From Apostichopus japonicus (taxonomy: Eukaryota; Echinodermata; Holothuroidea; Aspidochirotida; Stichopodidae), in NCBI RefSeq assembly GCF_037975245.1, contig NC_092567.1, positions 21,302,376 to 21,366,375 of the forward strand: a stretch of 64,000 bases of DNA. Reading direction: 5' to 3'. The notes under the pieces are model-generated. The model was given only the letters and a program-made list of their open reading frames with translations, did not search any database and was not told where the DNA came from. The position numbers were made by a program, and so were the translations under genes. Positions 2,304 through 55,600 of this stretch are shown in pieces (positions within the stretch are counted from its first letter, which is position 1; the number at the start of each line of letters is the position of its first letter).

Positions 2304-2661
2304 GCCACATAGGTCTCCTCTCCAGGATAGATGTTGGTCTTGGGAGATTTCTTGCTGATTTACGATGGTGGTGGTTTCCGTGTTCGGTCTACTTTGAAGA
2401 AGAAGAAAAAACACAGTCGCTCTTGTTGCAATGTACCTTTCCTGCTACACGTGCATTCATGAAGACAGTGTATTTAATTTACTGTATTACTGAGCTACAA
2501 AAGATGTTTAGTACCTTGGGAACATGTTCGTCTTTCAAAACACAGCTGAGTTAAGTAAGGCTCATCTTGTTTATTTTGTTCTGAGATGGAATATGTCATG
2601 AGTAGCCATTTGGGACAATATGCCAGTGCTATTACCACTCTATACTGTCCTCACATGTCAT

Positions 2662-2756
2662 GCTTCCAAGGACCTCGTACTGACAGTATGAACAGTTCTG
2701 AAAATTTGTCTAATAGAAATAGGATGTTCATACTGTCAGTACAAGTTCTTCGAAGC
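2662..2756. other. Long imperfect hairpin with an 18-bp perfect stem
   Basis: GTACTGACAGTATGAACA at 2677-2694 is perfectly complementary to 2725-2742 across a 30-base loop. The pairing continues outward with a few mismatches (2662-2676 with 2743-2756), giving arms of about 32 bases. It lies just upstream of AATAAA at 2781, in what may be the 3' untranslated region of the upstream gene. The shape is compatible with a small-RNA precursor or with a tiny foldback element. Confidence 0.6.
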
Positions 2757-2780
2757 TTGATGTGCAATAACAACATATTA

Positions 2781-2786
2781 AATAAA
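2781..2786 (+). terminator. Candidate polyadenylation signal AATAAA
   Basis: A canonical AATAAA sits about 480 bases after the candidate stop at 2301-2303. It is the first clear signal seen downstream of that stop. Without transcript data this is only a candidate. Confidence 0.3.
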
Positions 2787-3743
2787 ATAAGTGAACCCAC
2801 ACCTAACCATGGACCTATAGTACATTTGAGATTGCTGATCTTGCTAGTCTAGGATGCTTGATTTATCTGCTTGAGTATATTTAATTCCAAAGTCAATAAT
2901 CAGGACATTTACATAATGTTTACTGAATATCCCAAAGCTCACAGAGGTCAACAGTTTATGAATTAAAGTTGTGACCTGTTTATTCCAGAAAATCAGGGGA
3001 CATGATACCCACCAACCCCCCAGCAATGTTGATGTCAACACTAATACCTACACTATGTTTAAAGGAAGGCATTTTGAGGGTCTCATTGGTTCTGGGGTTC
3101 TATGTTTCAAGGATGTTGGTCTAATGCCTAAGTTTAGAACACCTTTCAGAAACAAGTATTTGTCCAAGATAATAATCCAATTTAAAAAAAAAATTAGAAA
3201 ACTCAAAGGTAACTGGACGTTCTATTATTCATCACTAAGTACGACATAATTCCGTTCATGTATTAGAACCAGCTGTGAAATTATTCAATGATCTGGGTTA
3301 TCTCTGAGCGATGAAAGAGAATTATGTTTGTAGTTATGAACAATCACAGCTAAGGATCAAGTTGTCTCTATAACCAGTAAATCAAACAGGCAAATTGAAA
3401 TATTTCAGTGCCTTTTTGCAAACTGAGGCATACTCATACAATACTCATACAATCTGTGTGCATTTCCGTGGACACTTTTAATCCGGGACGGCACATGAAG
3501 TCATGGACGACCCCCGGAAATCAGGGTGTCTGGTCACCTTAATATAAAGTAAAAGTTAAGTTAAGTAAATGCATTCATTGACATAGACAGCTAGGCTGTT
3601 TTTTTTTTTAAATGTTTTGGTTTTTGGGGCTTTGGTTTTTTTTTAAACTAATAGTATCAGACACAGTAGGCTGGCATTGAACAGGGAATACTTTATCAGG
3701 TATCTCATAGCAAAATGTTTAAATTGCTATACAAGTGAAAAAA

Positions 3744-4170
3744 TGTATAGCAGTTTTTGTACACAGAGAAACCATAGTATTTTATAGGAGATGACAGTTG
3801 AGAGGATTCAAAACTGCTACCAAAAAATGTTCAGATTGCTATACAATACACATACAATCTGGGGACATTTCTGTGGACACTTTTAACCCGGGCACAGCTC
3901 TTGAAATCCAGCAGTTTCTGTAGACAGGAACCATAGTATTTTATGGGAGATGACAGTTCAGAGGATTCCAAACTGCTGCACAAAATGTTCAGATTGCTAT
4001 ACAATACACATACAATGTGGGGACATTTCTGTGGACACTTTAATCCGGGGACAGCACTTGGAATCCAGGAGGGTTTCTGTAGACAGGAACCATAGTCTTT
4101 TATAGGAGATGAAAGTTCAGAGGATTCAAAACTGCTACACAAAATTTGAAGACTAAATTATTCCCTGTGT
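3744..4170 (+). repeat. Tandem repeat of about 158 bp, member of a dispersed family
   Basis: The phrase ATTGCTATACAATACACATA starts at 3835 and again at 3993, so the unit is 158 bp. There are two good copies and a partial one to the left (from about 3744). Each carries a block reading CATAGTATTTTATGGGAGAT and ends near AAACTGCTACACAAAAT. Single diverged copies occur at about 23893-24000 (minus), 25630-25735, 37168-37275 and 57261-57355. Confidence 0.8.
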
Positions 4171-5164
4171 GTATCCATGGCAATAATGATGATCTATGAG
4201 ATCAGTTCTTCCTTAAATACTTTTTTGTTTCATTTTTCATATTTTACTAAGATCATAAATAAATTTCATTCTGTGAATAATCATGTCAAAATTTGAAAAA
4301 TACAAAAACTTACAAAATAACCAGAAAATTTACTTTGAATTTGTTTATTTTATTTTTTTTTTCATATCTTTCTATAAATAATAAAATTTGTTTTATTCTT
4401 GAATTATAATGGAGGTTTTAGGGGTTACCTTGCTCAGTGGAAAGTTTTTTCATGGATAGCTACCTTCTTCATGAATTGCCAGTGACATTTTCATATTGGT
4501 GAGCTTGAGCTACATTCTGATATAATTTCCGAAAGTCCCAAACGATGATGTGTTTGTTGTCGAGTTAATACTTTGTGAAAACTACAGGGAAGGAGGCCCA
4601 GTCAGATTAGTAGAGGCTTTACCCACTTCACCGATCCTGTCATTCACTGAACATAACTTTATCATTTGACACTTAAATGAAATTTAGTCAAAAGATATGA
4701 AAAGAGGGCTGGCATAAACAAGGGGAGAAACCAAATATCAACCCTTGTCCCCTCCTCCAATTTGTTATTATAAATTATTAATCTGTTATTAAAATTCATT
4801 GTTTTTACAAATTGGTTAATTTGTTATTACAAATTATTAATCTGTTGTTAGAAAACATTAGCTTTATTTGTTATTACAAATAATTTATTTGTTATTACAA
4901 ATTATTGACTTGTTTTTAAAAGAATTCTTAACTCGTTATACCAAATTGTTAACTTGTAATCTGAAATAAACTTATTTCAAATTAATAATGGCCTAAGTGT
5001 AGACAGTAACAGAAAGAAACTAGCGCCCTCTGTCTTCCAGTCTTGCTCAGTATGTTCAACAAAGTATTCTGTTATCTGGATTTTCTTTAATTATTTATTA
5101 ATTATTTGCAATGAACACATCCAATGTCAAATATAGTAAAGTATTAGTTAATGGCATCTAAACT

Positions 5165-5513
5165 TGGAAAGGGTGTGAAGAAACGTCTCATGCCGGTAAT
5201 CTGACCTAGTTTCGAATGAGGTGTAACATAAGTGTTAGACACCACCATTGATCCCAGAAGATACACACACAGCTTGCTCCCGTCGGTAATTAGACACTAG
5301 TGTACAGTCAATACATACAGCTACGGTCAATACCCACAACACAGTGTACATAGCAGCGTGGACATCTCAGGTCTAGACAAAGGATAAGGTATCATGTTTC
5401 AACACTGTCTGCATTTTGTAGCGACAAGAAGAAAACGTCACTTGCAAGCAACGGAAAGTTAACTTTTTCAGAGCGCAGCACGCGGGTTGTGGCAAGTCTT
5501 CAATGCCTTTTAA
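5165..5513 (+). mobile_element. MITE with TTAA-type ends, copy 1
   Basis: This 349-bp segment matches, in inverted orientation, the element at 34450-34821 over its whole length. Its right end is AATGCCTTTTAA at 5513 and its left end begins GGAAAGGGTGTGAAGA. Compared with the other copy, the termini form imperfect inverted repeats (TTAAAGG..TGAAGACT) with TTAA at the outside. TTAA target sites are typical of piggyBac and Kolobok-type DNA transposons; which one is involved is not determined. No coding capacity was seen, so it is non-autonomous. Confidence 0.7.
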
Positions 5514-7136
5514 GCAATATTTTTAATTCCACCATTTTATCTCAATATTCGACTTGTTTTAAAAAATTCTTTACTATTCCAAAATCGCAAAATCATAACT
5601 ATTTTCCAAAACAAAAAGATTTTCGAAGTATTTTGACAATTTTACTACAATTCTAAACTTCAACTATGTTATATCAAACTTTTCACTATATACTGTCAAG
5701 ACAGTATTTTTACTTGATATTGAAATATCGACTTTTACATTAAACCTATTCTCTAATATTGGCTTTTTTATATATCGATATTTCGACTTGATCCTGAACA
5801 AAATTCATATCAAAGTTTAGCTATTTATCTCTATTCATCTGGGGTCAGTATTTAAATAAACTAATGAGGTAGTGTGAACAGACCGGTATGAATGTTGTAA
5901 GAAGGCCGGTGAATTAAAATGCACAAAACCACTCGTTTCAGACACCAACAAATGACTTCGTTAGCTGATATAACAAACAGATAGGACTTTTGCACTTTTA
6001 AAACAAACGATTTTTTCGGTACCATTATATAAGTTGGTGATTTCATCCGAAGAAGTAATATCACCCATACCACTATAAACAAAACGGCTTGCCATAATCT
6101 TGCTAAAAATCAGCTGGCGGGAAGAAGCACACGACCAAATTTCGAATGTGCGCTAGGGACACATTAGCACTGTCTACAGCTCACGAACATTACAACTTAC
6201 TACACAAGTGTTTTGGCGTGTTGATTACACAGTAAACCACCTCATGCATGGTTTAATGTCGAAAATACCGCGCTTGGTAATAACGTAATATGGATAAAAG
6301 GCTTTACGCATTACCGTCAGGTTGGTAGTTATTGGTAATTTTATTTAGAATCACAAACTTTTGAGGGAAAATGTGACGAGTAACAACCGCTTAGCCAAAA
6401 TAGTAGACCTAGCCAATTTCCACTTTGGCTTAGGCCACCCTAGTATAAACACAACATAACAGTTACGAGGCCTAACTAGTCCTAGCCTAAGCCGAGACCA
6501 GGCCTACGAATCGATGAAGTATTAATGTGTATCATATGTGCGAATTAAGATTGAAGTTCGAAAGTTGGCCAAGTCTAATACTAAGCCTAAACTAGCTGTA
6601 GTACTATGACTAGTATGACTGTGAGGGAGTTTATATACAATACCCTGAATAGCAACTAGGCCTAGGCTAAACACATTCTCTTACTTGTCTTAGTCTTCTG
6701 AATCTTACACAACAAATTGCAGGTAGGGCCTAGGCTTGAGTATGGGCCAGCATACTCAAACAAAAAAGATGACTATTAAGTAACATCTAACGTGTGACCC
6801 CTAAACTAAGCCTACATTAGGTGTAAACTCTACGCTATAAACAGCTTACTCCAAACTTTTTGCCAAAGTAACTTAAACCACAGTTGAATCAAAACTTACC
6901 TTAAGTTAGACATACTTCCCTAGGCCATAGACGTGTGAAATTATGGCCTATAGGCCTAGGCTAGCCTTTGTAAGGTTTCTAATTATGATTCTACCCAGGA
7001 TTTATGTGACTTATATATATATATTTCTTACAGATGCTGCAGGCTAAGTTAACTCCCAACAGGTCAAGAAACATTCATCATCTGGATTCAAAAAAAAAAA
7101 ATCGTCCTCCATGAATAATTTCTAACTGATGAATAT

Positions 7137-7725
7137 ATGAACCACATCCAAGCAGTTTTTTATTTGGAAGCAAAAATGTCAGTACTTCCTCACATTTCCC
7201 CATGTCCAAATCTCTCATATATCTGTAAGCCTCTGAGCTGTCTAACTTATACCTGTCCAGTCCTGACTAGGAGACTAGGCTATCAACAGGTTTGTTCCAA
7301 ACAATTGAATTTGAGAATGTCAGTCAATGTACCTGCAGTACATCATAAGCTTTTCAACTCTTTTCAAAGAAGTTGGAACGATACGAGTGGTGACGGATTG
7401 AGCAATGTAGTAGTAAAGACTAGAAGGCAAATTGACTGTCAGAATTGTATACTTTGGAAACACAAGACTAAAGCATGGAGGAGATTTTCATCGAAAGCAA
7501 CCCCACCAGATTTAGACCTGACAAGCAAGGAGGTATCGATGGAAGAGTGCCTTGTTCCATCAACTTCTGACATTAAAACTTTCCTGAAGAAGAGGAGATA
7601 TGATCTCAAAGAAGGCTTTGTCTGCTTTGAGATCGATTGCCAGTTTTGTAACTATCTGAAAGACCCTAAACTTAGAAATCCACCGCAGACTGAAGGCAAA
7701 AGTGTCTATGTCAACAAAATTTCAG
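7137..7725 (+). CDS. TWNK: TWNK exon 1 (coding): presequence and start of primase-like region
   Basis: Residues 1-197, ending in phase 1 at TTTCAG followed by GTATTT. Residues 140-197 align with the human N-terminal region ([17 protein letters not shown] matching TEIRQYLRGHGIPFQDG). Cysteines C168 and C171 form a CxxC that human Twinkle lacks. A similar DCQNC occurs at 100-104. The start Met is uncertain (7137 or 7176). Confidence 0.85.
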
Positions 7726-18581: not shown

Positions 18582-19360
18582 GAGAGAGGACAGAGAGGTA
18601 TGCTATCCCAAATGAGGACTAGGGATAGGCCAGTAAGAGACGAGGAACAGATTCAATCGCAAGTAAAGCAATTAGGGTGTGGAGGATAAGAGACGGGACA
18701 GAGATATCACTAATGATGACTAGGGATAGGCCGGTAAGAGACGGGGTGCAGATTCAATCGCAAGTAATTAGTAAAGCAATTAGGGTGTGGAGAATAAGAG
18801 ACAGGGGACAGAGATATCCCTAATGAGGACTACGGATAGGCCAGTAAGAGACGAGGAACAGATCTACCCCAAGTAAGCACTTAGGGTGTGGAGGATAAGA
18901 GACAGGGGACAGAGATATCACTAATGAGAAGTAGGGATAGGCCAGTAAGAGACGAGGAACAGATCTATCCCAAGTAAGCATTTAGGGTGTGGAGGATAAG
19001 AGACAGGGGACAGAGATATCACTAATGAGGACTAGGGATAGGCCAGTAAGAGACGAGGAACAGATCTTTCCCAAGTAAGCATTTAGGGTGTGGAGGATAA
19101 GAGACAGGGGACAGAGATATCCCTAATGAGGACTAGGGATAGGCCAGAAAGAGACGAGGAACAGATCTATCCCAAGTAAGCATTTAGGGTGTGGAGGATA
19201 AGAGACAGGGGACAGAGATATCACTAATGAGAAGTAGGGATAGGCCAGAAAGAGACGAGGAACAGATCTATCCCAAGTAAGCACTTAGGGTGTGGAGGAT
19301 AAGAGACAGGGGACAGAGATATCCCAAATGAGGACTAGGGATAGGCCAGTAAGAGTGTTT
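18578..19360 (+). repeat. 101-bp minisatellite immediately after TWNK
   Basis: The phrase GTGTGGAGGATAAGAGAC recurs at 18677, 18785, 18886, 18987, 19088, 19189 and 19290. The period is 108 once and then exactly 101 bp five times. Units contain GACTAGGGATAGGCCAGTAA and GACGAGGAACAGATCTATCC. The first, most diverged unit begins in the last TWNK codons and includes the stop. If transcribed, the array forms most of the TWNK 3' untranslated region. Confidence 0.95.
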
Positions 19361-19614
19361 ACATCCATGCAGGGGTGAAAATATGATTAGAAATTGAGGC
19401 CTTTATGGTAATGCTGTTTACATATTGCAGGATTACTCACTGAACGAAAAATCATCTACTGTGATTTCATTGTATCCTCTAATCCAATCCCAAATTTACA
19501 TACTTACAAATTGGCACACCTCATATTGTAAGTGCCTCCCCCCCCCCCACCCCCCCCCCCCCCCAAATCCAGCAGGCCAGAGCACTCCTGCCTGTTAGGG
19601 GCAGAGAGAAAGGA

Positions 19615-33158: not shown

Positions 33159-36100
33159 CTGAACGAGAAGAAAAATAGAAAGCAACATGATACATTCTGT
33201 CCGGACAAGTTCAGTTGAGTCAAAGTATAATAAAATAATTAATAAAATACCCCCTTCCCCACCTACCCACTTTAAAGTTCCAAGAACATGAAATTTAATT
33301 GAAAGTTTTATGAAAATGGTGTTATATCCAGAAACAGTGTCACAATAGCTTCTACAACCAGACAGTCTAATTTCCTCTTCCCCACCCCCTCACTCCTTCC
33401 CCCTCACCCAATTACATTTCCAACATGATCTATACAGGATGTTTTTGGAGAAGGACTTTGGAAGTGTTAAAGGGTGTCCTGGCATAGAAGAAATACACAA
33501 AAGGTGTCAAAAATGGTTTTGGCATTCGCTAATCCTTGCTCTTTACCAGCGAGGAGTCGTCAGTCCACAAAAATATATATTGATAGACAACCATCCCTAA
33601 CCACAAATATATTATGATAGGCAACCCTCCCTAACCATGTTGACTCACCTTACAAAGACTTTTCTATTTTTCTGATCAATTTTAACCTTGGCCATCTTTG
33701 ACTTGACCACTGCAAAGGAAAGAAAATGGAGATTTGATTCTTTAAAAATAAATGATCAGTTAGCTAGTAGGGATAGCAAAATAATTTCATTCTATGAAAA
33801 GATAATTCATTCACTGACATCAACATGCATATTGACTTGAGTGGCTTGGTTGCATTTCCAAAGTTCTCGTCATATGTATAAAAAAAGTTCAGAAAATATG
33901 TGAGTTTACATATCTTACTCGCAGTGATTATGCAGGGCCTGAAGTTAGAATTGCCATTTTCGTAAATAAATGGCCTTCACCATAAAATCATTCATTAACT
34001 ACCATATGGAAATGTCTAACAGACAAATGTCAGCAAAATTAGTGACATTTTCAAAGTTTATGGTATTGTATTTATGTTACATCTCTTCTTTTTCTCCTTT
34101 AGGGAAGACAGCAATGGTAAGAATAATCATCCAAATTTATTCAGAAGTATTTTTAAAGACAAACTAACTTTGGAGAGATTAAATTCCTTTTTTTTTTGTC
34201 ACAAGAATCAATTGTCTTTTCAAAAAGCATCCAAATTTGCAATGGCTTACACTTTCAATTTTTAAACAGAATCTACATTGTCAATGATTTGTAATTTTTT
34301 TTTTTTTGGACCTTGTTCATAATTTGCTCCTTCTTTTGTCAAAGATGCAAAAGTCTGCACAAAGTATCCAAATTCTTCTAAGGAACTGAAAACTGCAAAG
34401 AGATGAGTTATGATGAAGTAGCATTAAAGATCAATGATCAGTCAAGGTCTTAAAGGCATTGAAGACTCGCCCCAAACCACGTGCCACGCTCTGAAAAAGT
34501 TAACTATCTGCTGCTTGCAAGTGACGTTTTGTTCGTGTCGCTACAAAATGCAGACAGTAATGAAACGTGATACCATAATTGTTATCTTTAGCTGGACCTG
34601 AGATGTCCATCGCTGTATCGTTTGTATACGGTGCTGTGGGTATTGACCGCAGCTGTATGTACCGACTGTACACTAGTGTCTAATTACCAACGGTAGCAAG
34701 CTGTGTGTGTATTTTCTGGGATCAATGGTGGTGTCTAACACTTCTGTTACACCTCATTAGAAACTAGGTCAAATTACCGGCATTAGACGTTTCTTTTTGC
34801 GCAAGTCTTCACACCCTTTAACAAAAAGAAGCACCGACACCTACAGTCAAACAGACTCTTTTACCTTCGATAATAAAGTTCTCCACTTCTTCCTCCGTTA
34901 TCTTCAGTGTCTGGATGATCTGATCGAAGCTGATCTCCTTCTGATCCACGGCGATGCCCATGAAAGTCAGGATTCTCATTTTACGTAAAGTCTCTTCCTG
35001 ATTCAACGCTAGAAATAAGGGATAAGGATGCCAAAACACACATTGCATTAATGGGAAACAAAGTAGATCAATTGGATGACTAATTCATGTTCATGTGGTG
35101 AAAACAATCTAGCAAAATGCCTAAATTAAAAAAAATGTAAAAACACTTCTTTCGTAAAATAATGCCTGCCCTACCATTTGTATATTTATTTGGAAAGGAG
35201 TGTGAAAGAAAATGAATGGTTACAAAACCAAGAAATGACTAGGTACACCCCCTTTTTTATTTTCAACACAACACTTGTTAGCTTAACATCCTCATGGTAG
35301 TCATTTATTATTCATAACCCTCAAAGAATGTTGCCTCTGCTTACCTAAGGACTGGATAAAATCTCTGTTGGTGTTGTAAAAGTCTTGGTACATTTCAAGG
35401 TTACCGGAAACAAATATGGTGAGAAGCTAGAACGAGATCAGAAGATGAGAATTGAGAGACTTTGGAAAACATCTAATGATTCAAGATCAAACCAAAGCAC
35501 ACTGATGCAAGAATCCATGATGAGGGAGAGAAGACACGTAACGATAACGATGAAGAAATCGACCAAATGTAAACAACAGACAAGTACTGTCCTGTATATC
35601 ACACGCTATCCCGTTGCTGCTATGTGAGTGTGTGACGATATAATTTATGTCAAATTTCATTCTTTACACAAAGACGCATTCCTTTTAATGCTATGTGACG
35701 ACATAAATATATATAATTTTATTAATACTTTAAGTGCCGAATTTTTTTACCCGTCTCAATTTTTATGATTTTGTACTTTAGCGGCGATGAATTTTTAAAG
35801 ACAAAAATGTCATATCCCTCGGGCATCACTAGTCATTCACAAAGAATAACCCCCCTTCACCCCCTTCCCTTCACCAGGGTTTGTACAAACATTTGCTCTC
35901 AGTGTGTGCTACAGCAAGCCTACATTGAGATACTATTTTCCTTTACCTCGTGTATCCTTTCTCCTTCCAAAAATTTGACCGGTCTCAGGGTGAGTAAATG
36001 GTCAAAGAGGTACACGTTGGGGTCAGCGAGAGCATTCTCGATACACCTGTGTGCCTCGTCTCTGGCCTGTGATGCATTATCCTCTGTGTAAGTCCCTAGT

Positions 36101-39100
36101 AACTCCACCATGACTTTGCTTGCCTCCTCACTATAGTTGATAAACAAAACAATTATGATAGATACTTAAAAACTAGAGATAGTGTCAACATCGTTTTATC
36201 ACTCAAGTTGGGCTTTTTTCCCCCTTTAATCCAGTGATCTGTTAGGAAACTACATGACAGACGCTACATAAGTTTAGTCTAGTAGTTCCCAAGAGTTTTG
36301 AAACCAACAGAAACTCATTTGAAACCCTATCCATGTGATGATCGTGAATGAACACCACCTGCTAATATCGGGCTGTTTCCTTTTGACGAGTGATCATAGA
36401 ATTACAATGAATGTGTTGAATTGTTGCACCTATTACAAATTCGAGCCTGAAAAAGTGCAGAGAAGTCTAAAAATTGGAACACCACCATGGTATCCACTGT
36501 ACAAAAAAAAATCTTCTAACTAGTCAAGCTAAGAGACAATAGCTTTTTTTCTTTCTTTTCAAAAATAGCAAATGTGCCCTAATGGCAAATAAAATGTGCC
36601 CCTTTGATGGAGAACTGTCTTTTGGATATCTTAAGCCTTTGTTAATTTTAATATTTCATTTTAATTATTCATGTGCACCATAATAGTATTGATAGCATAC
36701 TAACACATCATATATATATTTAAGTGATATGGCCAGTGTGTATCGGTTGATAGCGTAACAAGTGGTGGTTGTGGAATGAGAAAGTGCCCCTCTGATGTTG
36801 TGCCTGCCCCCCCCCCACTTTTTGGAAGCTTCCTACCCCCCTGAGTACACACATGATGCTAAGTTTACCACTGTTGTCCACAACACATACTGACAACTGT
36901 TCAACTGGTTCTCACCTTAGTTTACTTTCTTTGAGAGCTTCATATAACAAACTTAACAGGTTACATATCTTGTCTTGGTCCAGTTGCCAAAGTTTTATCC
37001 AGTCTCTCACCTTTAAAAATGAGAAGAAAAAAAAAATCTGTGAATAATGCATTAAAATGGAGAAGTGGGAAATGACCTGGATTACAAAGTGCAGAAAATA
37101 ATTTACATGGTACTGCATTGCAAAGTGCTACAGTGCAAAATGTTCAATTTCCTTTATTAGTGCAATGATGTATAGTAATTTTTGTACACAGGAATCATAG
37201 TATAATGTCAGAGACAAAATTCAGAGCCTTCAGAACTGGTACAAAAAAAGTTTGAAGACTAAATAATTCCCTGTAGTGATTTATATTTTTCAATTTCAAT
37301 CTAAATTTCTCTATGATTACAAGATATAAGAGGAGATTATAAACATTGTCACTGGTTAATCACACTGAACCAGACTAGAACACCCTCAAGAGTGGTTCAC
37401 TGCCCTGCACATCGCTTGTCGAAATTTCCTTGAAATATGTGCAATGTTCAAATATACCAGAATCATACAGCATTCTATGCATTTGTAACTCGGTTCATAT
37501 AAATTAATCTTTTGACACGAACAAATTACAAATCCTTACATATGTAAGAAGAAGAATTTAGCTTCCAAGGTCATCAGTGTTGGGTGTCAAATTTTGGTAC
37601 GCTCAAAATTTCAAACATTTTAAAAAGTGCTTTGAGGAGTGTCAAAATCAGGTAACAACAAATCTCCAGATGGGAAAGGCTAGATCCAAGTTCAGACCTT
37701 GCACATTGCCCAAGGTAGGTAGGTATAAAGAGAATTTTTTTAAATCCAGTCTGGACCTTTTGTTACAATTTATGTTTCTACTGCTACTGCTCTCCAAAGA
37801 AAATAAATGTAAGAGCCCCTGGTCCAGATTGTTTACCTGATCTAGTTCCGTTTGCATTAGTTCGCACGATTTTGCTTGAGCAGCCACCTGAAGCATGCAA
37901 CAATAGACGATGTAAGACAAAGCATTCTGTTCTCCCACACCATGGAATAAGCTGCTCAGTCTGTGAATATTAAGGAAAATGGATTAAAAATTAGTCATTG
38001 ATCATTAAACATATATGGATATTGCTGCTCCAAACCCTAAAATGTTGCTTTCGTAGGGACAGTGCCAGTTTACAGATGGGTCAATCCATGCCAAATCAAC
38101 AGTGGCCTCCACGTCGACCCTCTCAGAATCGCCTGAAATTGATATGGTGTCTTGCCATATGTCTCAAAGGATGAAATTGGGCAAAAAAAAAATTAAAAAA
38201 ATTTTCGTTGCTAAGATACGGCCCCGCCTAGCAACCAAATCCAGATTGCATTTTAAGAGCCCTTAATTTGTGTCAAGTTTGGAGGCTTTTTTTGCATAAA
38301 TGTTTAGTATTTTATGTCTAATATTGCAGATATTGTGGAAGATATGTGGCCAGTCTTCGAATTTAGCTAATTTTGAGGAAAATTTACGGTCTCAATTTTT
38401 CGTAACAAGTAATTAAAATGGCAGAAAATGAGATAGGGGTCTTTCCTGGCCCTACTTTGAGTGTGCTCTATATTCACAAGCAGAGGCATGTTTGAGTTTT
38501 AATTTCCATAGGATCCTTGTCCAGTGGTAGTTGTACGGGAAAAGTGCAAAAAAAAAGTCAAGCGGGTCGTACGTTTTACGAACAGCGCCCTCAAACTTAA
38601 GAAATCTCACTTCTGGCCCTAATTGGGGGTCCATTTTGGGCCTGTGGGTATTTTTTTTTTTTTTTTTAAATAGCATTTTTCAGGAGCATATTGACCCTAT
38701 TTTTAAAAACTCAAGTCAAAAAGTTGTGTATTTTGTGTTTTCTACTCAAATTTACGACTCGAAAATTGCAAAAATCACTTCGTTCATATGTATGAAAATG
38801 CTTGCACAAGCCGATTTGAGTAATTCAAATGACAACAACTTCTTAGCATTAGCATACAGGTGCTTAACAATTAAGAGGGTGGTCCACTAGCATAAGGACT
38901 ACACATAAACTGCATTTTCGGGTCATATGCCCAACGATGCCTGTGAACAGCGCCCTCAAACATCACATTTTACCAATATTTTGGGCTATTTTGGACATTT
39001 CAAGGTCAAATTTGGTCACAATTAAAAGTTTTATTTTCGGTTTTTAATACAAAATTAATAAGATATGTATAGTTATGATGCACAGAATGAGCTAAATCAT

Positions 39101-42100
39101 CTTTTATATTAGTTATTAATGCTCTGATGAGCAGCTTAAAGTGGCGTATATATGAGAGTTACATCAGCTCTACAGAAACATGCGTGCGAGGGCAAACAGT
39201 GGTAACATTGTATCTTCATTCAAAGAGATGTTAAACAATATTAGAAATTATTGAAATGTATTTATTAAAAGAGTTCTGTCTAATACTCTTTGACTCCCTC
39301 TCACCCCCACCCCCCCCCCCCAACACCCTCCCCATAGTGCACTATGCAGATTTGTATACATACAGTATGTGACTGACTTTTACTGCACAGAGACTGCATA
39401 AACATGCATATACTGAATGTTTTGGTATGGTAATCTTCTGCTTCAAATTGTCTGTATGCATGTAACCCACCCCTCCCACCCACATCCTCTACCCAACCCT
39501 ATATCAGAATAGAAAATGAATGTAAACCAGTGCATACAGTGTGCACTATATATGTGTGTACATGTTCTGTACAGTGTTATTTTACACCAAGTACTATTTA
39601 AATACACTGTCCAAAATCATGTACAGTATACACACTGTACATGTATGTACTGGTGAAAAATTCCTTTTAAAATATTAAAAGTCTTTTAATTTAGTGAATT
39701 AGCAAATGCATACACTTCATTGCAAATATTTAAAAAGACATTGAAATATGCACTATGCAGTGTGCACTATATATGTGTGTACATGTTCAGTACAGTGTTA
39801 TTTTTCACCAAGCACTTTTAAATAAACACTGTCCAAAATCATGTACAGTATACACACTGCACATTTATGTACTGGTTAAACATTCCTTATAAATTGTTAA
39901 AAGTCTTTTAATTGATTGAATTAGCAAAAGCATATAATACACTTCAAATATTTAAAATGACATTGATATATATGCACAGTATTGAATGGAATGACCAGTA
40001 CACAGTGTGTACTGTACAGTACATGATTGTGGACAGTGTATTTATTTGCTTGGTGTAAAATAACACTGTACTGAACATGTACACACATATATAGTGCACA
40101 CTGTACGCACTGGTTCACAATTTTCTATTCTGATATAGGGCTGGGTTGAGGATGTGGGTGGGAGGGGTGGGTTACATGCATACAGACAATTTGAAGCAGA
40201 AGATTACCATACCAAATAATTCAGTATACCTTGAATGCATGTTTATGCAGTCTCTATGCAGTAAAAGTCAGTCACATACTGTATGTATACAAATCTGCAT
40301 AGTGCACTATGGGGAGGGTGCTGGGGGGGGGGGGGTGTGGGTGAGAGGGAGTCAAAGAGTGTTAGACAGAACTCTTTTAATAAATACATTTCAATAATTT
40401 CTAATATTGTTTAACATCTCTTTGAATGAAGATACAATGTTACCACTGTTTGCCCTCGCAAGCATGTTTCTGTAGAGCTGATGTAACTCTCATATATACG
40501 CCACTTTAAGCTGCTCATCAGAGCATTAATAACTAATATTAAAGATGTTTTAGCTCATTCTTTGCATCATAACTATACATATCTTACTAGTTTTGTATTA
40601 AAAACCAAAAAAAAAAACTTTTAATTGTGACCAAATTTGACCTTGAAATGTCCAAAATAGCCCAAAATATTGGTAAAATGTGATGTTTGAGGGCGCTGTT
40701 CACAGGCATCGTTGGGCATATGACCCTGAAAATGCAGTTTATTTGTAGTCCTTATGCTAGTGGACCACCCTCCTAATTGTTAAGCACCTGTATGCTAATG
40801 CTAAGAAGTTGTTGTCATTTGAATTACTCAAATCGGCTTGTGCAAGCATTTTCATACATATGAACGAAGTGATTTTTGCAATTTTCGAGTCGTAAATTTG
40901 AGTAGAAAACACAAAATACACAACTTTTTGACTTGAGTTTTTAAAAATAGGGTCAATATGCTCCTGAAAAATGCTATTTAAAAAAAAAAAAAAAAATACC
41001 CACAGGCCCAAAATGGACCCCCAATTAGGGCCAGAAGTGAGATTTCTTAAGTTTGAGGGCGCTGTTCGTAAAACGTACGACCCGCTTGACTTTTTTTTTG
41101 CACTTTTCCCGTACAACTACCACTGGACAAGGATCCTATGGAAATTAAAACTCAAACATGCCTCTGCTTGTGAATATAGAGCACACTCAAAGTAGGGCCA
41201 GAAAAGACCCCTATCTCATTTTCTGCCATTTTAATTACTTGTTACGAAAAATTGAGACCGTAAATTTTCCTCAAAATTAGCTAAATTCGAAGACTGGCCA
41301 CATGTCTTCCACAATATCTGCAATATTAGACATAAAATACTAAACATTTATGCAAAAAAAGCCTCCAAACTTGACACAAATTAAGGGCTCTTAAAATGCA
41401 ATCTGGATTTGGTTGCTAGGCGGGGCCGTATCTTAGCAACGAAAAATTTTTAAATTTTTTTTTTGCCCAATTTCATCCTTTGAGACATATGGCAAGACAC
41501 CATATCAATTTCAGGCGATTCTGAGAGGGTCGACGTGGAATCGACCCAAAAATCTGTTGATTTGGCATGGATTGACCCAGATAAAGAAAGTGTCTTGCTT
41601 GAATCAAAATGTAATTTGTATTTTGAGTAAAGTACAGTAGGTTGGATAGACTTGCCTGAATCTGCCAACCCAACCCAGAAACAGCTTCTTTTTTTTCTTT
41701 TTTTCTTATTTTGTACTCACATTTTGAGCCTGAGGTCACACATCTGGCCTTCTGCTGCAGCTACTAGGTGGTCACTGACTTTCGGAACTAAGATGCTCAT
41801 ATCCTCCACAGGCAGGTAAATTAGCAATGAGAGGATGCTGTTGAAAAGAGCCTCGATATCTGGAGCGTTAAAGATCACAGAGGGGGGAAAAATTGGATTG
41901 ATAGTCAATTATGGCTATAAAAAAAACATGTAAAATGAAATATCATTGAAAGTTCAATCATTGAAACCATCAAATATTTGAAAGAAAATTTCTACTAGCA
42001 AAATAATATGTTTGATAAGATTCAATTTAGCTCAGACATAGAAGTGGTGTCAGAATCAAGTTGTGAAATAAAAGTCTTATCATAATTGTCAGTTACAAGT

Positions 42101-50000: not shown

Positions 50001-50159
50001 TTTTATTAGTGATGTATTTTCTTGTAAAGTCTTAACAAAGTTTTAGTTACAAGTTTTACAGAAGATGACTAAGGAAATGAAAGTTGTGTTGCTTTATCAT
50101 GCATACTCGTTCATTTCTACACATGAACAAAAGTGTATGTGACCTTTCTGTGCATCTCA

Positions 50160-51265
50160 ACTATAGTATGTACTCAACTACACTATGTACTCAACTATAG
50201 TCCAGTATGTACTCATACACAGTATGTACTCAAGTACGGTTTGTACTAAAACACAGTATGCACTCAACCACAGTATGTACTCAACCACAGTATGTACTCA
50301 ACTACAGTATGTACTCAACTACAGTATGTACTCAACTATAGTATGTACTCAAACACAGTATGTATTCAACTACAGTTTGTACTCAAACACAGTATGTACT
50401 CAACTACAGTATGTACTCAACTACAGTATGTACTCAACCACAGTATGTACTCAACTATAGTATGTACTCAAACACAGTATGTATTCAACTACAGTTTGTA
50501 CTCAAACACAGTATGTACTCAACTACAGTATGTACTCAACTATAGTATGTACTCAAACACAGTATGTATTCAACTACAGTATGTACTCAAACACAGTATG
50601 TACTCAACTACAGTATGTACTCAACTATAGTATGTACTCAAACACAGTATGTATTCAACTACAGTATGTACTCAAACACAGTATGTACTCAACTACAGTA
50701 TGTACTCAACTATAGTATGTACTCAAACACAGTATGTATTCAACTACAGTATGTACTCAAACACAGTATGTACTCAACTACAGTATGTACTCAACTACAG
50801 TATGTATTCAACTACAGTATGTACTCAAACACAGTACCGTATGTACTCAACTACAGTATGTACTCAACTACAGTATGTATTCAACTACAGTATGTTCTCA
50901 ACTACAGTATGCATTCAACTACAGTACAGTATGTACTCAAACACAGTATGTACTCAACTACAGTATGTACTCAAACACAGTATGTACTCAAACACAGTAT
51001 GTATTCAACTACAGTATGTACTCAAACACAGTATGTACTCAACTACAGTATGTTCTCAACTACAGTATGCATTCAACTACAGTATGTACTCAAACACAGT
51101 ATGCACTCAACTATAGTATGTACTCAACTACAGTATGTATTCAACTACAGTATGTACTCAAACACAGTATGTACTCAACTACAGTATGTACTCAAACACA
51201 GTATGTACTCAAACACAGTACAGTATGTACTCAACTATAGCATGTACAAACCTACAGTATGTACT
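50160..51265 (+). repeat. 17-bp minisatellite with 85-bp higher-order repeat
   Basis: About 65 head-to-tail copies of TATGTACTCAACTACAG and three main variants (AACACAG, CTATAG, and TATTC in place of TACTC). Between about 50394 and 50800 a fixed order of five variants recurs every 85 bp, a higher-order repeat. A few 4-5 bp insertions (GTACAGT) shift the phase later. Because 17 is not a multiple of 3, long Tyr/Ser/Thr/Gln frames appear; they are artefacts. The array lies upstream of the liprin-alpha coding exon. Confidence 0.97.
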
Positions 51266-52009
51266 TCTAAAGGGTATGCCATTCAATGTGTCAATCTGAA
51301 ACACTGACCTTAAAAGTAGAAGGAAACCCACCTATTATTGCTTAGAGAATTACTGCAAAAAACATGTCAATTATTCCAGTTGTTAAATATAGAATTTTTA
51401 TTGTTCCTTTGTACACAACATTGAAGACTTGAGTAAGTCTAATTGACCGTACATATGAGATCATCTGTTTGGGGCAGTCAAGGTGTTCATTGTAGGTATC
51501 TCTTTATCACACAAAGTGAGAGGATACTTCAAATGATTGAGTTTACTTTGTCTTGAACTTAACAAGATTATGTTTCCATGAAAATTAATGTTTTGTTTAA
51601 ATAAGTGATTCTTATCATAACAAGACAGGAAATGAGGTGTATTGTATTTGTTTGTAATTAAGTAAATCCATGAAATCATCTGATATCCTGTTTATGCTTA
51701 TAAATAGGGTAAGGAATTACCCAAGTCATTTTATTTAATATGGTCTACATTTTCTCATTATAAACATTGACTAACCAGTCTAACCACCAGGGGAGCATTA
51801 ATGATGCACAAACCAAAAGAAGGTGCCATGCCAAGTACTTATTGTTCAAAATATGACCCAATGTTGTCATAAACTTTGTCATTTGAAAGTTTCTAAGAAT
51901 ACACTACAATTGGGACAAAAACGTTGACAAATATGAAGTTCACAGTATTATTCAATGGTATAAAAGTTGTATTTGTTCATTTGTTTGTAATGACATTAGC
52001 TTTTTTTTC

Positions 52010-52314: not shown

Positions 52315-52658
52315 GAGGAAGCTCACCAAGTGGGCCAGGGTCCAACAGCACACAGTAACATCCATATACCTCTACCGTCGCCTTCTCTGTTCGTGGCGCT
52401 CAAAGATTTCTTGCGATGATGTGCGACGTCATGCCAACCATCTCTGAGGACTCTTCGAGTCAGCGGGGGTCAATCTCCAGCTATGGGGACGACCCAAACT
52501 TGGAACAGCTGATGGTCAGCATGTTAGACGAACGGGATCGTCTGATGGAGACACTGCGGGAGGCTCAGGACAATCAGTTGATCGCAGAGCACCGTGCGGA
52601 CGAACTTGAAAAGGACAGGGAGATGCTGCAAAAGCAGTTGTCTACCAGTCAACCAAAG
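52315..52658 (+). CDS. PPFIA: Liprin-alpha, first coding exon (partial gene)
   Basis: Liprin-alpha proteins are coiled-coil and SAM-domain scaffolds that organise presynaptic active zones and focal adhesions and bind LAR-type receptor phosphatases. Acceptor TTTGCCACCAG precedes 52315, the first 101 bases are 5' untranslated, and the ATG at 52416 opens MMCDVMPTISEDSSSQRGSI, matching the vertebrate start MMCEVMPTISE. FEQLMVSMLEERDRLLDTLRE of vertebrates matches LEQLMVSMLDERDRLMETLR here, the start of the N-terminal coiled coil. Donor AAGGTAAGT follows 52658 at phase 0 after 81 codons. Vertebrates have four paralogues; I cannot assign one. Remaining exons are not seen to 64000. Confidence 0.93.
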
Positions 52659-55600
52659 GTAAGTCCCGGTCATTAACTTTTCTGTCACTGGTGTCATCAT
52701 TAGGGTTGGTCTGTGGGATAGTAATGGAAGAGAGGGGGGGGGGAGGGGATGGGGTTGGCTGTTGTTGAGGGACCACCAACATCAGGATTCAGGAATGTCA
52801 CCAGAAGTTATCGTCCTTGACTGTCAACACAGTCACACAGTCTCACAACTATCATTCATGACATAGCTAGTGCATGAAACCATCTCTGTGTCAACCATAC
52901 ATGAATACAGTATGTTTCAACAAAATGTATGAAATGTAGTGCACAGTCACATATAAAGCGATTAACTGTGCTCGTTATACATTTACCCCCTATCAAGTTA
53001 CATTGAGCCTATTCAGTACCCGGTTCTTGCCAGTTGGAAACTTCGGAGGTGTTAAAAATCAGTTTCACTCAATAATGTGCCATCAGTTGTAAGAGACTGG
53101 TTTGCTGTGACAGAATTTAGTGGATACATCAAAGCGATCACAAAGCTCCTTACACAAGTTTACATCAAGATAAAGTACATGTGTGGGTCGAACTATTCCA
53201 TTCATGATGCAAATAAACTAGCCATGGTGGGACAATGAGTTTACAGGAGCTGTTAATAGTTCTTAGCATGATGTCCCATCACATCAATATTCATGACTGG
53301 TGAATGTGATAGGTTAGCCAAAACCACAAATTCTTCATGTGGAGTTGAAAATCAGCTGATACTAGGAGACAGTAGCCTACCATTACACTCAATTATCCAC
53401 ATCGTTGCTGGCAAATACAGTACCCATCTATGTGTCTCGAGAGTATAGGAAGAAAAAATTAAGGCAATGCGACTGTGTGTTTATGGAAATTCATGCATTT
53501 TGCATGAGAAAATACCCATAAATTTATGCCTAATTGTGATAAATAAAAGTGACCAGTACTTTTGTAAGGAGAATTAGGATAATTAGACCTAAATACCTTT
53601 TAAAGTTTTTGATATCCATGTTTGTCTAAGGTTCAGGTAGAGGTGAATTTTATTCCCCCACCCGGACTGTCACATGTACAGTAGATCTATATCACAAAAC
53701 TTCTCTGTTGAATCACAACCAAAGATCTTGTTTTTAAAATGCTCTTCCTTCATCCTCAATTACCTGTCACGGACATAAATCAGTCTGTCGGCATCAGTAG
53801 TAGTCAAAAGGAAAAGGATATTAGAAACAATGGCGAGTTTCCTACTCGAACAGGAATGGATCTTACAGTTCATGCACTGGTCGGGATTGATACTGTTTTA
53901 TGATAATACAGATCAACCCTGTTGCACTTTACTACGAGTATGTGTACTGTAAAATTTCATTGTGCTCAAGTAATGTTAACTTCAGCCTGTCAGAATTGAT
54001 GAATAGCATAAGTTCCTTCTAGTATCCTCATAGCTAATATTAGATTTTGTTTTGTTTTTCCCTTCTTTTTTTCATCTTTTGTTTTTCCCCATTGAGGAAA
54101 GAAGAGAAAAGAAGAGAAATTAAATCAATACTCCATAGATTCTCTTCGTTGAGAGCAATCATTCCTTTACACAAATTGAAAGGTCTGCTGCTGGAGAGGT
54201 TGGGATTCAGTTTTGCCGCATTCTTAATTCACTAAATGCTTGATATTACCAATCATCAATTTCATTTCCATGGTACGATTTTGGCCCGAAGGAGCTTGTG
54301 TGTCTGTCGTTGCACAATCTTGATGGATCTTTCTCTCCACCAGTCCCCGGTTTGCATCAAGTGCGTGCTGGCAACAGTAGTTTGGTGTTTTGTAGGAGGT
54401 ACTGTACCGTGGTAATTTTTTTCCCCATCGATTATTGACTTCCTCGTCGGGGGAAAAAATTGTTGGGGGCAAGGTCACATTCATCTTTTCTCGATATGCC
54501 GGGAACGATAGCACACCACGACAGAGTCGCTATATATGTTATAAGTGTAAGAAGCCTCAGTGAAAAATACTACAACAGTGTACTTTGTAACACACTACGT
54601 TGAACATTTTATTTAATTTCATTTATAAATATACTTCTCATCACAACAATAAATCGCAACGTTCATATCACACCAGTACTGTACAGTAGGTCAATGGGGT
54701 GCAGTGCTGAAATTTAACCAATTTATGTACAGGTACCGTACATACATAATGTAAAAATGGTATACATTATGTAAAAATGGAGACAGGTTATTTTTGTCGT
54801 TCGGAAATACCTGAACAGCACTGTTAGTTTGGGTTTCTGTCACTATATAATCTGACCATGTACAATTATTCCCTAACCTTCCTCAAAAATAATAATTATA
54901 ATTATTTAAAAAAAAATATGTTTAACATATAGAACAAAGATGATAATTAGTGTAACATTTTACTTTATCGCTGTTTCACTTTCAGCATATTTTAAACAAA
55001 AACAAAAATAAAAACAAATTTTACAACAACAATTAAATAGAACAGCAGATATTTATAGTAATATTCAACAATTAACAAGAAAGAAAGCAAGATTCACCAC
55101 ATAAACTAATTAAAAAAAAAATTAAACCAAACTTTGAATCTTTCTGCAGCAAATATTGTAACGTACTATGCAGAGATTGCTTTAAATTTTCTAAACATGA
55201 AAGTCCTATCACTACCGTATCTCGCAGTCATGTTCTTGTTAAAGGTCAAGTGATGAACAACTGTACTGTACGACCATTTGTACCATTTGGATAATACAGG
55301 AGAGCCGAAACTCAATCAACTACATCTTTAATCAGATTATTGGTAAGTTTATCCGCTGTGATGCATTTACACGTTTGTGACACTTCTGAATAACAGAAGG
55401 TTTAAAAGACAAAGTGATCAACATGTCGGAAGCTTTGTCTCCAGGCAAAATGGAAGCTTGTCACTCGCAGTATATTACTTGGTAAAGTACAACAAAAAAG
55501 TTCACAGCTGGCTAAGTTGTAAATTGAATGCCCGCTGAATTGGATGTCGTGCAAGCCTTTGGTCTTCAAAGATATCTCGAGCCGTCATCTGCGATTATTA

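Follow-up and report, generated by a model that had tools for sequence, protein, structure and literature searches.

The window analysed here comprises 64,000 nucleotides of the holothurian Apostichopus japonicus (C7:21302376-21366375 in a 35-contig assembly totalling 671,581,487 bases; positions below are window coordinates). Within an intron of its EIF3M gene lies a near-perfect palindrome of 3,501 bp. We propose that it is very probably one copy of a family of non-autonomous foldback DNA transposons, here called family A. It combines long inverted arms around a middle domain, dispersed copies with target duplications, and the lack of a transposase within the element, the features by which foldbacks are recognized.

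The element and its host intron

Three exon pieces on the minus strand, joined across the intron, match eIF3m (E = 5.4e-26); one upstream exon searched singly gave no match. Together with GT...AG borders on the minus strand from 41720 to 37961 (counted from the printed borders), this upholds the placement within an EIF3M intron made in a preliminary description of the window. The intron measures 3,760 bp, and 255 bp once the element and one AGAT are subtracted. The element is probably spliced out together with the intron.

The sequence GGGTCAATCC runs inward from 38078 and its reverse complement runs up to 41578, exactly the limits first proposed. The outer inverted arms (38108-38922 and 40725-41539, 815 nt) are 99% alike and the inner pieces 95-98%. 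Pairwise alignment of the arms reaches about 39638 and 40007, giving arms of about 1.55 kb and a spacer of about 370 bp where 1.58 kb and 340 bp had been stated. The spacer is made of repeat units about 222 bp apart, which extend into the inner arm ends. The outermost 25 bp form a perfect inverted repeat (26 counting the flanking T/A), inside which the next 6 nt on the left and 15 nt on the right are unlike (left tip AACAG-TGGCCT-CCACG, right tip AACAG-ATTTTTGGGTCGATT-CCACG). AGAT stands on both flanks. Within the window the terminal sequence has two matches at no more than three mismatches, both of them ends of this element (chance mean 0.01).

Folded in silico, the intron gives a near-complete hairpin with a minimum free energy of -2882.9 kcal/mol, 1,493 arm-to-arm pairs and a longest perfect helix of 560 bp. 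The very long double-stranded RNA envisaged in the pre-mRNA thus stands as a prediction of the folding model, and any effect of such RNA would rest on that prediction.

Copies elsewhere in the genome

The 20-bp end has 170 exact matches in the assembly (87 on the plus and 83 on the minus strand) against 0 and 0 for a reversed control, so the window element is far from alone in having these ends. Taking end pairs by eye from the first 100 of the 170 matches listed gave 21 convergent pairs including the window copy, and the other 20 were fetched. These end-to-end copies are 214 to 6,066 bp long (10 of 21 at 3.39-3.61 kb), and perfect 4-bp target duplications flank 19 of the 21 examined, window copy included. 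The duplication of L027, counted as perfect, sits in an AT run and is uncertain in length; that of L037 is imperfect (ATAT/AGAT); the composite L035 has three ends, of which the inner pair is flanked by ATAT/ATAT and the outer pair is mismatched. Among 20 duplications, including the inner pair of L035, 17 have A at the first position and 16 have T at the fourth, so that the target-site consensus is 4 bp with an ANNT bias. Transposition, at first suggested by the ends and the flanking AGAT, is borne out by the same ends genome-wide with their own 4-bp duplications at different sites.

Searching the assembly with the arm gave 69 matches, short pieces included, when 40 of 402 first-look candidates were scored; among these, matches of at least 890 bp are 94-98% identical, the window itself excepted, and add two further convergent pairs on C17. 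Single-ended and nested relatives exist at 80-93% identity. The end pattern had no match in viral_contigs and 9 in genome_contigs, against about 7.5 expected by chance (estimated from pattern size), and the arm had no match in phages.

Several loci are of a different kind. L038, L039, L040, L049, L055 and L057 hold a rearranged foldback copy, made of two right-hand arm pieces, within a larger repeat with a common outer flank; the pieces they share are mostly 96-99% alike, one of them over 6 kb. In L055 (oriented 2371-7501, minus strand) a 1,710-aa open frame interrupts the rearranged copy and probably belongs to another mobile element. L047 has the exact 20-bp end, yet its matches to the window element do not exceed 40 bp. 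L059, one near match lying in sequence that looks gene-like by eye, was set aside.

Table 1. Coordinates of the element and of its surroundings in EIF3M
Feature	Position	Strand	Remark
Open frame containing the EIF3M exon upstream of the intron	41721..41908	-	exon start not fixed
EIF3M intron (GT...AG)	37961..41720	-	3,760 bp
EIF3M exon downstream of the intron	37837..37960	-	downstream end approximate
Left target-site duplication AGAT	38074..38077	.	
Foldback element, family A	38078..41578	.	3,501 bp
Left terminal inverted repeat	38078..38102	+	25 bp, identical to right
Short-tip segment TGGCCT	38103..38108	+	L type
Left arm inside tip	38109..39638	+	inner border approximate
119-codon open frame, left arm	38531..38890	+	behaves like chance, not gene
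Spacer	39639..40006	.	about 370 bp, repeat units about 222 bp apart
Right arm inside tip	40007..41538	-	inner border approximate
119-codon frame, right arm	40757..41116	-	one residue different
Long-tip segment	41539..41553	-	R type, 15 nt, 9 nt longer than left
Right terminal inverted repeat	41554..41578	-	25 bp
Right target-site duplication AGAT	41579..41582	.	

Unlike tips and a second family

The two tips of a copy are systematically different. In the 12 copies compared, left and right arms are set apart by fixed differences at 12 columns (positions 24-30), and 58 distinct ends (window copy and L018-L057) comprise 31 of L type, 27 of R type and none of any other, although some of them, sitting in one amplified larger repeat, are non-independent. 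An L tip is paired with an R tip in 19 of 21 copies, the types lying 9 nt apart; the L tip of L037 breaks off after a few bases. The exceptions are the composite L035 and the 488-bp L034; the latter combines two L tips with a perfect AATT duplication, which shows that unlike tips are no strict requirement. Judged from sequence, the pattern suggests, without being proof, that the transposase requires unlike ends.

Relaxing the end search brought up 39 places against 1 in the control, some of them not relatives, and GGGTCATTCCANGNCAAAT occurs at 78 places against 0, 15 of which read GGGTCATTCCATGCCAAAT. Two copies read among these 15 define a family B. L062 (81-2905) is a 2,825-bp palindrome with arms 98.3% alike over 1,300 bp and the duplication AGCA/AGCA; L063 (81-519) is a short copy of 439 bp with TGTA/TGTA. 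L062 has an arm core of about 690-840 bp in common with family A (87-88% BLAST identity); the first 24 bp are 96% alike, the outer 74-85 bp 68-72%, and comparison of the centres of L062 and family A gave no match. In all four combinations A and B arms diverge by 11.3-12.2%, against 18 differences in 1295 sites between the two B arms. The palindrome thus predates the split and evolved in concert in both lines, or was rebuilt. Under the Repbase rule, non-autonomous families share a superfamily when their duplications have the same length and no more than one mismatch is found in bases 1 to 11 (from the accessible part of PMC4455052). A and B have a single mismatch in that stretch and by this rule belong together.

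The tips of L062 read AACAA-GCAAAATTTGATTT-CGACACCC (14 nt) and AACAA-GGGTC-CGACACCC (5 nt), again 9 nt out of register, and the motif TCTCAGA starts at 44 and 53 in A, the corresponding starts in B being 52 and 43. L063 carries both of these tip types, slightly altered, its longer tip being cut before TCTCAGA. An offset common to both families is, at the level of sequence, a strong lead and not a rule, because two B copies are few and may stem from one ancestor.

We also looked for a conserved arm block and rejected it: the longest identical A-B run, 53 bp in one arm pair, is non-significant under random placement (566/10000). The BLAST alignment of another A-B arm pair holds an identical run of about 76 bp by eye. 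The 17-mer GAACAGCGCCCTCAAAC occurs twice per arm (38580, 38945, 40685 and 41051); its outer copy and surroundings are identical in family B, where the inner copy differs by one base. L060 and L061 have a third set of ends, GGGTCATTCCATGTCAAATCACGG, of which about 36 bp are identical between the two; they are 85% alike over about 570 bp, have only about 21 bp in common with family A, and their second end is not fixed. The longest L060 frame over 90 aa has 175 aa, and by eye a nested element seems to be present there.

Concerted evolution of the arms

We compared arm divergence within 12 copies with that after 5,000 random re-pairings of arms between copies. Within-copy divergence was 1.76% against a re-paired mean of 2.64% in columns 60-400, 0.66% against 1.52% in columns 400-800 and 1.89% against 2.54% in columns 800-1200; in each interval 0/5000 re-pairings fell at or below the observed value. 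Columns 0-60 gave no within-copy signal in the 12 copies, every re-pairing returning an identical value. In 100-bp steps, within-copy divergence goes down to 0.3-0.5% at 500-900 bp, against 1.3-2.2% for opposite arms of different copies. Private alleles number 34 in both arms of one copy and 180 in a single arm among the 12 copies; the window copy has 8 private substitutions of the shared kind and two inserted bases. A tree of 15 copies (no support values) makes the two arms sisters in 8. Mean arm divergence between copies is about 1.8-3.4%, in a set selected by exact ends in which older copies are therefore under-represented.

Arm interiors thus evolve in concert within copies; tips and centre do not. 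Where the preliminary description offered youth or gene conversion as the cause of arm likeness, conversion, in patches, is favoured over simple youth across columns 60-1200.

Coding capacity

The 119-codon frame reported from both arms is there, with a single change (K to R), but its preservation carries no evidential weight. First-order Markov simulation of the arm gave an uninterrupted frame this long or longer in 82/1000 runs. Arms aligning gap-free from the first codon of the frame yield 105 non-synonymous and 32 synonymous substitutions, a ratio of 3.3, from non-independent arms, against a neutral expectation of 3.87 and hence no clear shortage of amino-acid changes, and A-B differences fall 11, 17 and 14 by codon phase with no third-position excess. 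We rejected a coding gene on these counts; to judge by sequence comparison, the frame behaves like chance, with no visible selection. Eight frames from the element and its surroundings drew no Pfam match at E values up to 1.

Long frames do occur behind single ends: one reverse-transcriptase-like by eye (L041), one of low complexity (L050), one of 483 aa (L053) and the 1,710-aa frame of L055. None of these four was shown to lie between two family A ends. L027 (6.07 kb) holds an insert of about 2.5 kb; its longest frame has 135 aa.

Other features of the window

No Rfam family or tRNA was found in the 64 kb. A 17-bp minisatellite at 50058-51300 (55 overlapping register copies) has several frames open, and a tandem array with a 101-bp unit lies at 18604-19456. 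A dispersed inverted repeat pair of another family (5178-5510 and 34452-34795) is 84-92% alike at a distance of 29 kb. The open frame at 52359-52676 (plus strand) has no Pfam match above the cut-off; it presumably resembles the liprin-alpha N-terminus.

Discussion

Our data argue for a mobile element whose arms are copied from one another. Were the palindrome a non-mobile inverted duplication local to EIF3M, its being the only one of its kind in the window would be expected; that reading, which retains practically no probability, is already refuted by same-ended copies at many places, the majority of those examined being flanked by a 4-bp duplication of their own. That the assembler or a hairpin read created one arm as a mirror image of the other is a very remote prospect as well. 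Long-read libraries are known to suffer from mirrored reads, yet such reads would produce neither tips that differ alike in 19 of 21 copies nor arms with differences of their own. Moreover, the published A. japonicus assembly was built from PacBio HiFi reads with a mean length of 14.7 kb, according to the available part of PMC10344927, which is long enough to span the element.

Whether the arms are alike through youth of the palindrome alone bears on the conversion argument directly. The closeness of the copies to one another would suit this account, which we nonetheless disfavour as rather improbable: between columns 60 and 1200 the two arms of a copy are closer to each other than opposite arms taken from different copies, and B arms are nearly identical despite a core 11.3-12.2% from that of A. 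Somewhat less improbable, though still unlikely, is that each palindrome was rebuilt in one step by hairpin or snap-back replication and not by repeated conversion. Such copying predicts the same within-copy likeness, and a form with two right-hand arm pieces exists in L038 and its kin; conversion, however, looks patchy along the arm and is not seen at the tips or the centre, and the tips have retained their fixed differences. The meaning of the unlike tips is a closer matter. Gene conversion needs flanking homology, and segments only 25 bp from the end may lie too near the homology edge to be converted, in which case their difference would be meaningless; the inner edge likewise lacks within-copy excess, and L034 has a perfect duplication with two L tips. 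Against it speaks the 9-nt offset found also in family B, a family with outer 74-85 bp only 68-72% like those of A; we hold this reading to be not far short of an even proposition.

Some observations weigh against our own account. Beyond column 1200 there is no within-copy excess (3487/5000 re-pairings at or below the observed value). The tree interleaves the arms of L022 and L028 and groups arms by side in L018, L024, L025, L030 and L033; with arms of 5/15 copies grouped by side, conversion must be patchy. No transposase or autonomous copy was found in 20 single ends followed 8-9 kb inward and four sister copies read over about 3-3.5 kb, a search in which no Sola2 profile was used. Finally, 25 of 35 arms keep the 119-codon frame open with no indel and 2 keep it open with an in-frame indel, and in 8 it is shifted and carries stops; so many open frames could suggest constraint.

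With no transposase or autonomous copy in hand, we infer that the element is moved in trans. A transposase made elsewhere would bind the 25-bp ends, and perhaps also the unlike tip segments, excise the element and reinsert it with a 4-bp stagger. Repair of the break left by excision, or of one in a cruciform, would then copy one arm from the other; we propose that one arm can template repair of the other because they are inverted copies. Such repair would homogenize the arm interior, stop short of the tips and rearrange the middle, and it would also yield rearranged copies such as L035 and L038 with its kin.

We leave the superfamily open because no transposase was found; Sola2 is the best lead. 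The GGG start of the element agrees with what we take to be the Sola2 end rule. Target duplications of 3-4 bp are also made by Ginger, Academ and Chapaev, which are therefore further candidates. The P superfamily, with duplications of 7-8 bp (7 bp in Galileo), was rejected against the 4 bp seen here. TU elements of sea urchin are likewise echinoderm foldbacks; their arms consist of short tandem repeats as the preliminary description has it. The outer arms of our element show no short tandem array, which would agree with the contrast drawn there.

The following comparisons draw on the accessible parts of the papers cited. Sola2 partly resembles the element in its 4-bp AT-rich target duplications, AWWT in some members, and its short terminal inverted repeats (PMC3627910). 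It differs in being defined by its transposase, and the accessible text describes no long palindromic arms for it. Given the missing transposase, the other candidate superfamilies and the departure from AWWT of several A duplications (AGCT, ATGT) and of both B ones, membership in the Sola2 group is doubtful. Tetris of Drosophila virilis offers parallels in form: its inverted arms reach 1,735 bp, it lacks a conserved frame, its autonomous copy has not been found, its repeat units are named TIR-220, and there are hints of homogenization (PMC4079207). Its authors place it in Mutator with duplications of 8-10 bp; the element makes 4 bp, and we rejected a Mutator-type foldback on that ground. The same text attributes most foldbacks to Mutator, with exceptions such as Galileo, and lists a sea-urchin foldback without, in that part, using the name TU. 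Galileo of Drosophila, from the P superfamily, has foldback-like long inverted repeats on a DNA transposon, as here, but carries a P-type transposase (PMC4168063). In one open-access library, with Repbase and Dfam outside the search, no transposon paper stood among the titles listed for the end sequences, and a search for echinoderm foldbacks matched a single paper, on piggyBac. The family may already be in Repbase as an unclassified repeat.

Collectively, we tentatively envisage, as a possibility that falls short of even, an echinoderm foldback lineage that belongs to neither Mutator nor P, whose arms keep being copied from one another and whose transposase demands unlike ends 9 bp, or about one helical turn, out of register, an offset kept in two families whose cores are 11-12% apart. 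In the set of copies, gene conversion between arms and the distance over which it acts are naturally recorded, and the family, with its 4-bp duplications, extends the long-arm form to a group beyond Mutator. The intronic 1.5-kb hairpin in a housekeeping gene is a case for studying how cells tolerate such predicted RNA. The fixed 9-nt offset yields a sharp, testable prediction on how the transposase would distinguish its two ends.

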